Assembly: GCF_000196895.1 (NCBI RefSeq)
Contig: NC_014297.1
Span: forward strand, 868,001 to 932,000
Direction of reading: 5' to 3'
Length of the DNA: 64,000 nt
Source of the DNA: Halalkalicoccus jeotgali B3
Lineage (GTDB): Archaea > Halobacteriota > Halobacteria > Halobacteriales > Halalkalicoccaceae
This document shows positions 2,750 through 5,877 of the stretch, piece after piece. The position numbers and the translations under genes were made by a program. How positions within the stretch are numbered: the stretch's first letter is position 1; each line of letters starts with the position of its first letter. The notes under the pieces are model-generated. The model did no database searches. It was not told the DNA's origin and was given only the letters and a program-made list of their open reading frames with translations.

Positions 2750-4315
2750 CTACCGGTACCGGCCCCGCCCCTCGATCTCGCGGAGCTGGTCGAGAACCCC
2801 CGAATCGCCGGTCTCGCGGTAACCCGCCTCGAACGCCTCCCGGCAGGCCTCGAAATCGCCGGCCGTCCCCGCGAGCGAGCGCTCGAAGACGTGGAGGTCC
2901 ATCGCGTAATCCTCGATCTCGTCGGTGTGATAGCCCAGCCCGAAGTCGATACAGTAGAGGCGATCGCCCGAACGGCGGGCGTTGCGGGGCGTCGGATCGC
3001 CGTGAACGAGCCCCCGTTCGTGTAACGTCGCGAGGTGCGCGCCGAACTCCCGAACGCGCTCGGGGACGAGCTCGGCGCTCAGATCCGTCTCCCCGACGTG
3101 TTCGAGAACCAGCGTTCCCTCCCGAGGGTCGACGTCCCGAACGACGGGTGTCGGCACTCCCGCCCGCCGGGCGAGGCTCGTCAGGCGCGCCTCGCTTGCG
3201 GTGCGCTCGCGACGCAGGCGCCTGTCGAGTGTGGGGTGGCGATAGGCCTTCGCGAGCCGGCGTTTCTCGACCTGCGAGCCGAGCGCCACGGCGGCTTCGG
3301 CTCCGACTACCTCCGACTCGTCGCCCGTCGCCCGGGAGACGGATTCGGCCCCGCGCCAGGTGACGTCGACCTGATCGGGCCGGAAGTTCGAATCCACACG
3401 AGAGTCCTCGATCGCGAGGGTGTCACCCGCCGCGGCCATCGTCGCACCGAGGACGGCAATCATGCCCGCGTTATCCCGCAAGAAACGGGGCTCTGGTGCG
3501 TAAAACGACGCGCCGCGGGCCTCGCACATCGCTTCGAGCATCTCGCGCAGCCGGGCGTTCTGTCCGACCCCGCCCCCCAAAACGAGCTCGTCGCTACCAG
3601 TGAGTGAAAGGGCGCGCTCGCTCACCTCGGTGAGCATCGCGAAGACGTGCTCCTGTAAGGAGAAACAGACGTCCTCGATACGCTCGCCGGAAGCGACGGC
3701 GGCCTTCGCAGCGCTCATGATCCCCGAAAACGAGAAGTCCATCCCCTTGACGACGTACGGCAGGTCGACGTACTCGCCCTCGCGGGCCGCCGCCTCGATC
3801 TTCGGCCCGCCCGGATGGCCCCAGTCGAGGTGGCGTGCGAACTTATCGAGTGCGTTGCCCACGCCCGTATCCATCGTCTCGCCGAGCACCTGATACCGGT
3901 CGTTGTGATACCCCAGTACGTGGGCGTTCGCGCCGCTTGCGTTCAAACAGACGGGGTTCGCGAACCCCGAGCGGTGGCGCCCGATCTCGAGATGGGCGAC
4001 CATGTGATTGACCCCGACGAGGGGCACGTCGAGGCGCTGGGCGAGCGCGCGGGCGGCGCTGGCGACGATCCGCAAGCAGGGCCCGAGTCCGGGACCTTGC
4101 GAGAACGCGACCGCATCAACGCCGTCGGCCGCAGAAAGCGCCCGCTCGATCACCCGTGGGATCGCCTCGCTCATGTGTTCGGCCGCCTCGCGGGGATGAA
4201 TACCGCCGCTATCGGGTTGGTAGGGGTCCGATTCGATGAAAACGTCGTCGGTCTCGGAATCGAAGGACGCGGCGCTCGCGGCCCACGCGGTGCCTTCGAT
4301 CCCCAAAACGCGCAT
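2750..4315 (-). CDS. kae1: Kae1-Bud32 fusion: tRNA t6A transferase and kinase
   Basis: Core of the archaeal KEOPS complex. Kae1 transfers threonylcarbamoyl to A37 of ANN-decoding tRNAs; Bud32 is a small regulatory kinase/ATPase. Residues 1 to about 325 are Kae1, with the metal-binding HMVAH (H104, H108), FSQGPGLGPCLR, and the DNAGMIA stretch near the end. From about 350 the Bud32 domain follows, with invariant-lysine region EKRRLAKAYR, catalytic loop VHGDPTPRNARR and IDFGLGY in place of DFG. Such fusions are known in haloarchaea and some methanogens; 521 aa is the expected size. It sits 15 bases after rps27ae, the usual archaeal linkage with translation genes. Confidence 0.97.
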   Translation of the reverse strand: MRVLGIEGTAWAASAASFDSETDDVFIESDPYQPDSGGIHPREAAEHMSEAIPRVIERALSAADGVDAVAFSQGPGLGPCLRIVASAARALAQRLDVPLVGVNHMVAHLEIGRHRSGFANPVCLNASGANAHVLGYHNDRYQVLGETMDTGVGNALDKFARHLDWGHPGGPKIEAAAREGEYVDLPYVVKGMDFSFSGIMSAAKAAVASGERIEDVCFSLQEHVFAMLTEVSERALSLTGSDELVLGGGVGQNARLREMLEAMCEARGASFYAPEPRFLRDNAGMIAVLGATMAAAGDTLAIEDSRVDSNFRPDQVDVTWRGAESVSRATGDESEVVGAEAAVALGSQVEKRRLAKAYRHPTLDRRLRRERTASEARLTSLARRAGVPTPVVRDVDPREGTLVLEHVGETDLSAELVPERVREFGAHLATLHERGLVHGDPTPRNARRSGDRLYCIDFGLGYHTDEIEDYAMDLHVFERSLAGTAGDFEACREAFEAGYRETGDSGVLDQLREIEGRGRYR

Positions 4316-4330: not shown

Positions 4331-4465
4331 CTACTGCCACTCGGTGTAGCTACAGCGCCCACAGTGCATGCGGTCGCCGTAGTCGCCGAGGTACGTATCG
4401 CCACAGCGGGGACACTGCTCGCGATCGGCCGACCCGTCCTCGCCGTAGATCTCGTGGCGGGCCAT
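4331..4465 (-). CDS. rps27ae: 30S ribosomal protein S27ae
   Basis: 44 aa, starting MARHEIYGEDGS. It has a four-cysteine zinc ribbon: CPRC then CGRC, 15 residues apart, as in S27ae/eS31. The ATG overlaps the stop of rps24e (TAATG), so translation is coupled. Gene order rps24e-rps27ae-kae1 is a conserved archaeal arrangement. Size and cysteine spacing match the family. Confidence 0.95.
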   Translation of the reverse strand: MARHEIYGEDGSADREQCPRCGDTYLGDYGDRMHCGRCSYTEWQ

Positions 4466-4782
4466 TATGCCTCCTCGCCCTCGTCTGCGCCCTCGCCCTC
4501 GCCGGCGCTGATCTTGTTGCGCTCAAGCATGTGGTCCTGCTCGACGTCGCGCGCGAAGTCGGGGCTCTCGTAGACCTTCGCGTAGCCGACGGTCGTTCGC
4601 ATCCCGAACTTCGTGTTCATCTCGCGGATGACGACCTCCTTTGCGTCCTTGTTGAGCTTCGCCGCAAGGCTGTCGCGCACGGAGAGGCGCTCGGGGGTCG
4701 CCTCCTCGTGGGTGATTTCGAAGGTGACGTCCGTTCGGTGCAACATCGGGTTTTCCTCCTCGGAAACGATCGAGATGTCCAT
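4465..4782 (-). CDS. rps24e: 30S ribosomal protein S24e
   Basis: 105 aa starting MDISIVSEEENPMLHRTDV, the normal N-terminus of S24e, with the family core (LAAKLNKDAKEVVIREM, GMRTTVGYAKVYES) and an acidic C-terminal tail. I rejected the longer frame upstream because it runs through the hairpin cluster. A TATA-like CCTTTTACG (minus strand, near 4818) gives a short leader. First gene of the minus-strand operon through rps27ae and kae1-bud32. Confidence 0.96.
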   Translation of the reverse strand: MDISIVSEEENPMLHRTDVTFEITHEEATPERLSVRDSLAAKLNKDAKEVVIREMNTKFGMRTTVGYAKVYESPDFARDVEQDHMLERNKISAGEGEGADEGEEA

Positions 4783-4835: not shown

Positions 4836-5103
4836 CAGCTTTTGCGCTGTCGTTCGAAAGATGCTCAGCATCTTTCGTGATGACGAGATGGCTTCGCCAT
4901 CTCGAACCACGTTCGCGGTCCGGAGGACCGCTCCTCGGCAAAAGCTGTCTTGCGGGAGCGAAGCTCCCGCGTGTGCCGCAGAACGCGAAGCGTCCTGCAA
5001 GCCACCAAAAGCGCGCATAGCTCCTTACAGTCGCTCTGTGCTACCGCTCGCAGCTTCGCTGCTCGCGGCCCGCAGCCGCCTACACTGACTCCGTAGCGCT
5101 ACG
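4836..5103. repeat. Cluster of short perfect hairpins, mostly tri-loops
   Basis: This 316-base gap between rps24e and radB holds no convincing gene. It contains perfect stems at 4855-4864/4868-4877 (10 bp, loop TCA), 4884-4892/4896-4904 (9 bp, TTC), 4915-4921/4925-4931 (7 bp, GGA), 4952-4959/4963-4970 (8 bp, GAA), 4978-4998 (9 bp with one A.C mismatch, GAA), 5050-5054/5058-5062 (5 bp, TTC, flanked by a further 4-bp stem), and the 12-base palindrome 5092-5103 that runs into the radB stop. A 10-bp inverted repeat (4836-4845/4938-4947) encloses the first three. Function unknown: RNA structure, protein-binding repeats or a decayed element are all possible. Confidence 0.85.
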
Positions 5104-5800
5104 CGCCAGCCAGTTCGTCGATACTCTCCAATCCCTCGTCGGTGATCCGAAACTGGACGCTCTCGCCGGCGGGTTTCGAGCGGTGTTTCTCGAGGGTCGC
5201 CCGGCGCTTACCCCCCCGAAACCGATCGATCCGCATCACCGTGCCGGTCCAGTGTTCGAGCGTGTTGCCCCCCAGGGCACGCACCGTCTCCGAGTCGGGA
5301 TCCGAGAAGACCTGGTTGGTGAGCAACACGGCGAGATCGTGCTTTCGCGCGAGCGCGAGCAGGTGGGTGACCTGTCGAGCGACCGAGCGAAGCGCATCGC
5401 CCTCGCGTTCGTCTTCGGTGCGTTGTAACCTGTAGAACCCCGTCGCGCTGTCCAGAACGATCAGGGAGACCTCCTCGGCGAGGTCCTCGGCGTCCCGCAC
5501 CGCTTGCTCCTGTTCCTCGAAGGTGTGGGCCTCGCTGACGACGATCCGCGAGGAGAGGGTCTCGACGTCTGCCTCGCCGTGGGCTCGGAGGAGTCGTTCG
5601 AACCGATCGGGCGAGAGCCCCTCGGTGTCGATGTAGGCGACGCGCTCGCCGGCCGCGGCGCACTCGACGGCCGCACACAACGCGACGTTCGTCTTGCCGG
5701 CGGCGGGCGGGCCGTAGACCTGTGTGACGGTCCCGCGCTCGACGCCGCCGCCCAGCAGGTCGTCGATCGGTGGGCAACCGACGGAAATGGCGTCGTTCAC
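5099..5800 (-). CDS. radB: DNA repair and recombination protein RadB
   Basis: RecA-fold paralogue of archaeal RadA that assists recombination and repair. The 233-aa chain is only the ATPase core, without the helix-hairpin-helix domain of RadA, as expected for RadB. Walker A is GPPAAGKT at 30-37 and the Walker B strand is LIVLDSATG. The C-terminus has TGTVMRIDRFRGGKRRATLEKHRS. I chose GTG at 5800 (MNDAISVGCPPIDDLLGGG), the usual RadB beginning; a GTG at 5842 would add 14 residues. Divergent from the RNase H-like gene. Confidence 0.92.
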   Translation of the reverse strand: MNDAISVGCPPIDDLLGGGVERGTVTQVYGPPAAGKTNVALCAAVECAAAGERVAYIDTEGLSPDRFERLLRAHGEADVETLSSRIVVSEAHTFEEQEQAVRDAEDLAEEVSLIVLDSATGFYRLQRTEDEREGDALRSVARQVTHLLALARKHDLAVLLTNQVFSDPDSETVRALGGNTLEHWTGTVMRIDRFRGGKRRATLEKHRSKPAGESVQFRITDEGLESIDELAGA

Positions 5801-5877
5801 ACCGGAAATCAGGTCGATGGGGGCAAAAACGCCCCGGTCCACGAAAGGGTTTACCCGCCGTGGATCGAACCTCGGGC

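Follow-up and report, generated by a model that had tools for sequence, protein, structure and literature searches.

The stretch of DNA analysed here, which we will call the window, comprises 64,000 nucleotides of the Halalkalicoccus jeotgali B3 genome. The region of interest is the gap between two genes on the reverse strand: radB (5099..5842; NCBIfam NF006861, 425.5 bits) and rps24e, the gene for ribosomal protein S24e (4465..4782), which has no NCBIfam match and was identified through Pfam (PF01282, E 1e-29). Downstream of rps24e, at 2750-4315, lies a gene for a fused Kae1-Bud32.

The gap contains six perfect hairpins with a stem of at least 5 bp and a three-base loop (4855-4877, 4884-4904, 4903-4915, 4915-4931, 4952-4970, and 5050-5062), the third of which overlaps its neighbour. 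It had been proposed that this row of tri-loop hairpins exceeds chance, and it does: when the gap was Markov-shuffled 1000 times, six such hairpins were reached once, and its counts at stems of at least 6, 7, or 8 bp were never reached. The whole window, on the other hand, has no marked excess (10 seen and 10.7 expected at stems of at least 7 bp; 5 seen and 3.1 expected at stems of at least 8 bp, with three of these five located in the gap), and the enrichment is, therefore, local. Folding of the whole gap gives z values of -4.48 as DNA and -4.59 as RNA. The other features of the original prediction are also present, namely a 10-bp inverted repeat enclosing the first hairpins (CAGCTTTTGC at 4836..4845 pairing with GCAAAAGCTG at 4938..4947, forward strand), a 12-base palindrome covering the radB stop (CGTAGCGCTACG, 5092..5103), a hairpin with a single mismatch, and four loops that read GAA or TTC, a number that holds when the mismatched hairpin is counted.

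Rather than forming one array, the row consists mainly of two separate insertions, elements A and B, within an older hairpin-rich gap. Element A (4850..4909, forward strand, 60 bp; covariance model match of 72.2 bits) lies between a G at 4849 and a C at 4910 and can be sub-divided into TCGTT, a first hairpin (P2, 4855..4877, with a 10-bp stem and the three-base loop TCA), the linker TGATGA (4878..4883), a second hairpin (P3, 4884..4904, with a 9-bp stem and the loop TTC), and AACCA. Its ends are inverted (TCGTTCGA and TCGAACCA), being complementary at 7 of 8 positions. The linker is invariant in 41 equal-length copies, all found by a pattern or a model that favours it. Element B (4948..5002, forward strand, 55 bp), between a G at 4947 and a C at 5003, has twin tri-loop hairpins like A and different ends (TCTT, hairpin, GTGTGCC, hairpin, AAGC); its second hairpin is the one with the mismatch. 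Two hairpins fall outside both elements: GCGGTCC-GGA-GGACCGC (4915..4931, forward strand), which belongs to the host sequence, and a 5-bp hairpin closer to radB (5050..5062, forward strand).

The same gap in congeners is informative. When the 60 bases of A and the 55 bases of B are removed, the window gap aligns with that of congener G002 without a gap across either junction, the junctions in gene orientation reading TTTTGGTG|CAGCTTTTGCC for B and ACG|CAGCGCAAAAG for A. The older enclosing repeat is mostly retained in G002 without element A, and a hairpin of different sequence occupies the place of the host hairpin. Read by eye, the gap in congener G003 has neither A nor B, its B junction being uninterrupted, whereas G006 has a B-like insert with other stems at the B junction and lacks A. 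Both elements are present in congener G001, where P2 of A differs by one compensated pair (A-T to G-C) and B by one swapped pair. This is the kind of compensatory change that a comparison of relatives had been proposed to look for.

A terminator for radB or a leader for rps24e, two of the roles first suggested, would place stable hairpins just where these lie, between the two genes. The same gap, however, does without both elements in G002 and G003 and without A in G006 (the latter two by eye), and a block before rps24e, CGAAATCCTTTTAC, is kept in all five gaps with A and B both upstream of it. We consider such a function extremely improbable, and in the window A does not evidently serve either gene. 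Among the roles proposed at the outset, a recombination relic comes closest, since A and B appear to be insertions.

When the locus was compared with plasmids using blastn, a piece of 44-65 bases (window 4839-4913) was found on seven haloarchaeal records with other neighbours, in addition to one radB match. Placed side by side, these matches mostly keep TCGTT, TGATGA, and AACCA, and both stems differ yet remain paired; in L034 and L035 the second hairpin is degraded. A pattern built on the fixed bases of A matched at least 118 stretches of genome contigs. A two-hairpin parse of all the loci collected yielded 81 copies at first, and later analyses used 107 regex-parsed copies with lengths of 54-66 bp. 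Within L041-L120 the parsed copies all come from records named as haloarchaeal except L114, whose record reads only uncultured archaeon A07HR60, and none of the bacterial pattern matches there parsed as a two-hairpin A. On viral contigs, 30 stretches matched the pattern and none passed the parse. It should be kept in mind that copies located by pattern or model favour conserved ends.

A covariance model (CM R1) built from 17 gap-free copies, with at most 28 candidates scored per genome, has matches in 174 of the 195 genomes of the order that were searched, and in 150 of the 157 of good quality. Since the motif is nearly symmetric, a copy tends to score on both strands, which roughly doubles the count of matches for each genome. 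In the genome of the window itself, one copy is strong, another place scores 43.5 bits, and a third, weak one scores 23.1 bits. The row of hairpins is meaningful rather than a product of chance. The recommended search for a shared hairpin pattern has a positive outcome, the same motif with different stems being present across the order, and so does the comparison of relatives, through the compensated change in G001.

The base before A is G in 103 of 107 copies and the base after it is C in 99 of 107. Since the element starts with T and ends with A, and the flanks are G and C, its ends are unambiguous in nearly all copies. No target duplication is seen at A sites, and the uninterrupted sites, including the gap of G002, show none. 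One way of assessing whether a site exists without the element is to join its flanks, and this was done with 40 + 40 bases for 30 of the 107 parsed copies against 293 genomes. Among the matches listed, at least 19 of the 30 joined flanks have an A-free match that extends 30 bases or more to each side, at 85-100% identity; the best match covers 80 of 80 bases, and several reach 98-100% over 78-80 bases. Two of these 19 cases come from L191, where the flank contains part of an adjoining A copy, and the other 11 joined flanks had no such match among those listed. Within the loci already collected, 29 of 107 copies have a homologue that spans the junction and is ungapped around it, though a few, which are distant or lie in coding sequence, are weaker proof.

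Some hosts are themselves repeated, and some of the empty matches are consequently paralogous host copies rather than orthologous sites. Among the group f5/g6 genomes, every sampled copy of A sits in one repeated host sequence, and part of the spread of A may, therefore, be that of its host. G050, G109, and G119 have identical A cores in distinct copies of the host. In these three genomes, a repeated host (CCAAAGCCCCAG...CGCTCGCTG; L273-L292) carries A in all 20 of the stretches that were fetched for A, and near-identical joined flanks of this host without A are present in related genomes. At a given site, precise loss of A instead of gain may also account for the difference. Taken together, these comparisons support an A that is mobile and has been dispersed to unrelated sites, with exact ends (TCGTT and AACCA) and insertion between G and C that neither duplicates nor removes target bases.

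The host sites are often palindromic. Exact enclosing inverted repeats of at least 10 bp, searched within 60 bases upstream and 120 downstream, surround 21% of 72 copies as opposed to 2% of cross-pairings, which indicates that A often lies within host palindromes. An earlier test of an outer helix by duplex energy was weak (-16.7 for real flanks and -14.5 for crossed ones at 25 bases) and was replaced by the exact repeats. Insertion into an unpaired loop was also considered and rejected: a first control pointed in the opposite direction (0.25 unpaired versus 0.43), and against matched GC steps in the predicted fold the insertion point showed no difference (0.25 versus 0.25). It is slightly more enclosed in that fold, with 14.5 pairs as opposed to 12.3 expected (p 0.003).

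Three copies lie inside protein genes whose frames stay open (L157:491-1729, reverse strand; L046:3653-6637, forward; and L060:624-5303, forward). These encode two histidine kinases and one glutamate synthase, as supported by Pfam; the inserts are the only 66-base copies among the 107, and a common P2 hairpin encodes RSRDGDAVSRDDE. Because their lengths are multiples of three and the frames are open, these three copies fit translation better than splicing, though 37.5% of the 88 copies tested have lengths divisible by three anyway. A tRNA-type bulge-helix-bulge intron was rejected as well, the ends not forming that motif when judged by eye.

Pairing in the stems is nearly complete and the sequences that pair are varied. 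In the set of 41 equal-length copies (35 distinct), 99.7% of cells are paired, the covariation score is 0.468 (0.170 when shuffled and at most 0.117 when slid), and 106 cells have double changes compared with 38.5 in shuffles. This set leans toward the model since it was picked as the equal-length, best-scoring matches, and two of five covariation measures do not stand out from shuffles: both-side changes, C-G/G-C swaps included, are found in 9 of 17 pairs (7.8 when shuffled, with 39 of 500 shuffles reaching 9), and further pair types number 16 (15.5 when shuffled, with 243 of 500 reaching 16). There are 62 distinct P2 hairpins, 69 distinct P3 hairpins, and 50 distinct 5' arms. The 5' arms of P2 and P3 are identical in none of 97 copies, although 8.06 would be expected, and none of 10000 shuffles was so low, a result that fits either a need for two separate hairpins or the loss of copies with direct repeats. 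The alignments thus support two independent hairpins with three-base loops whose stems change together around fixed ends and a fixed linker.

Whether the fold is selected as DNA or RNA is less easily read from the pairs. In 218 hairpins of 114 copies there are 1532 Watson-Crick pairs, 13 G-T, 7 A-C, and 13 other mismatches (10 hairpins skipped, a pairing cut of 70%, and the first two, fixed pairs left out), and the 13 G-T and 7 A-C pairs are too few to decide the matter. Mini-hairpins of the d(GCGNAGC) type are stable. In A, the loops are GNA in 73 hairpins and TNC in 68, that is, 141 of 194, and the 5' closing base is C in 187 of 194, a combination that we take to be the signature of very stable DNA mini-hairpins. 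Like the scarcity of wobble pairs and the never-identical 5' arms, this leans toward DNA.

It is conceivable that A is a structured RNA, either a small RNA or a cis element, with its hairpins selected on the transcript and its copies spread by duplication. The strong covariation, the mutually distinct stems, the fixed single-stranded linkers, and the good folding of the gap as RNA would all agree with this, and PATEs can be transcribed: PMC10544981 reports strong transcription of a PATE from Halorubrum lacusprofundi and its virus and describes one Halobacterium PATE as an active ncRNA. Yet a wobble excess is not clear, the nearly symmetric motif scores on both strands, and copies sit in intergenic, TnpB-adjacent, and protein-coding places alike. 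At the gathering score, Rfam has no match in the 64-kb window, and near A there are solely matches with E>1. We judge a structured RNA unlikely.

Near-perfect palindromes with tiny loops and few wobble pairs might also form at the site itself during replication, through template switching or hairpin-primed copying, with nothing moving at all, and the congeners that have different-sequence hairpins at one place could be taken in the same way. Such a process would not, however, give 174 of 195 genomes the same 16 fixed bases (TCGTT, TGATGA, and AACCA) round a pair of hairpins at unrelated sites, nor would it yield clean G|C junctions, and as the origin of A it is very improbable. It may nevertheless renew the stems once A is present.

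A closer relation to IS200/IS605 elements has to be weighed, in which case A would belong to the right end or the guide RNA of an IS200/IS605-TnpB unit and the solo copies would be remnants. The copies of L062, L076, L101, and L145 follow closely after a TnpB signature and precede an end resembling ...GGGTAGTTTAC, and a variant with the linker TGATCA is found just behind a TnpB hit in G003 and also in repeated hosts of G064. Against this, a TnpB signature is located within 2.5 kb of 7 of 80 copies (fewer than the true number, given that the signature is narrow and many of the loci are truncated), and uninterrupted host sites exist. Moreover, G034 and G136, each 99% complete, have matches to A and no hit to the Y1 transposase (PF01797) or to TnpB (PF07282). 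This account is, in our estimation, rather improbable.

Y1 TnpA or TnpB as the mover was likewise rejected, co-occurrence across the 195 genomes giving no support: PF01797 is found in 115 of them and PF07282 in 183, and A is present with no Y1 hit in G013, G014, G034, G040, G050 (which is rich in copies), and G136. The IS200/IS605 proteins now present do not explain A, given G034 and G136 without either and G050 without Y1. Neither protein seems to be needed for A, though the copies may be old, and such proteins may have moved A in the past.

In G064 itself (L261-L271), the variant GTCGTTCGA..TCGTGATCACGA..TCGGACGAC, with ends that are nearly or fully complementary, occupies 11 places whose flanks are much alike. 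Its linker is mostly the palindromic TGATCA, and one of the places, L264, looks by eye like the 3' part of a TnpB gene.

The interpretation that we favour, judging from the sequence comparisons above, is that A and B are probably small non-autonomous mobile DNA elements inserted side by side in an older palindrome-rich gap. A would be kept folded as DNA, and its moving form would be a single DNA strand folded into both hairpins, a route suggested by the folding, loops, and pair statistics of A and by the absence of duplicated target bases. An enzyme would read the fixed bases TCGTT, TGATGA, and AACCA as the hairpins hold them in place, and the same enzyme would join A at G|C steps in strands that can often form hairpins themselves. 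The stem sequences would then matter solely as stable, mutually distinct clamps.

Several known systems resemble A in part. Bacterial REPINs (REP-RAYT) have two hairpins per unit and are non-autonomous and dispersed, all of which is true of A; unlike REP/RAYT, A is present in genomes with no Y1 hit (174 of 195 genomes for A and 115 of 195 for PF01797). MITEs are similarly short and gene-free with inverted ends, but target duplication, which is frequent in MITEs though not universal, is absent from A. The TGATGA between two hairpins recalls the hammerhead ribozyme, whose core consists of CUGAUGA plus a GAAA part. That reading was rejected because the core C is G in A and the GAAA part is AACCA, and there is no Rfam match; a C/D-box reading of TGATGA was discarded on its core bases and the same lack of a match.

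One of the best comparisons is with SMR-A of Haloquadratum walsbyi (HqIRS42, HqIRS43, and HqIRS55). In the sections of PMC3119063 covered here, these are tiny, gene-free, multicopy elements of about 110 bp with inverted terminal repeats, which make up three families, unrelated in sequence, of a single species; they cause no target duplication, are found in palindromes of other mobile elements with a strong preference for those of IS605-type elements and PATEs, and their mobilisation is unknown. Inverted terminal repeats and the absence of target duplication are both seen in A, which differs in being 54-66 bp long and order-wide. Those sections of PMC3119063 mention neither paired tri-loop hairpins with a fixed linker nor stems that covary. 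With respect to the palindrome preference, TnpB signatures lie near the 7 of 80 copies mentioned above, an undercount, and enclosing inverted repeats are enriched. The best account, which compares A with SMR-A by description only, is that A would be akin to it in habit while being shorter, order-wide, and built on a defined twin-hairpin plan.

PATEs and IS605-type ends, according to the same sections of PMC3119063, have subterminal palindromes and no target duplication. Some copies of A lie inside apparent ends of this type, but A has its own ends and also occurs in genomes without a Y1 or TnpB hit. A literature text search for TCGTGATGACGA returned one unrelated paper only, and no account of A was found in the portions covered of PMC3119063, PMC12306157, PMC12558985, and PMC10544981.

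Element A may not stand alone. In 1.28 Mb of loci there are 173 twin tri-loop hairpins with stems of at least 7 bp, compared with none in one Markov shuffle; as the loci were chosen for A or joined flanks, this is not a genome-average density. The A linker accounts for 73 of the 173, and TGCCA for 9, TGCAA for 6, and TGACA for 5 (each including the complement). We offer, as a tentative proposal with somewhat less than an even chance of being right, that haloarchaea harbour a large class of twin tri-loop elements, of which A is the best marked and to which B and elements with linkers such as TGCCA, TGCAA, and TGACA also belong. Its members would move by an undescribed route, independent of IS200/IS605, in the form of folded single strands of DNA. 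They would insert at G|C in other hairpins, nest within one another, and settle in frame in protein genes, and their stems would be restored to perfect DNA palindromes instead of undergoing step-wise compensation of the RNA type.

One class of haloarchaeal intergenic hairpins now has precisely defined ends, a fold, and a rule for its targets, and is seen to be spread across the order. How small mobile repeats move, a question left open by the 2011 Haloquadratum paper (PMC3119063), becomes directly testable, and the varied stems of A form a natural set with which to ask how palindromes remain perfect.

Other recurring twin tri-loop families with linkers of 4-5 bases (TGGCA/TGCCA, TTGCA/TGCAA, TGACA, and TGGC) can be seen at L054:675-760, L138:3831-4040, L145:1200-1265, and L151:6268-6520. 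At L203:1216-1290, an apparent A with a TCATCA linker is, by eye, split by another twin tri-loop element, an instance of nesting.
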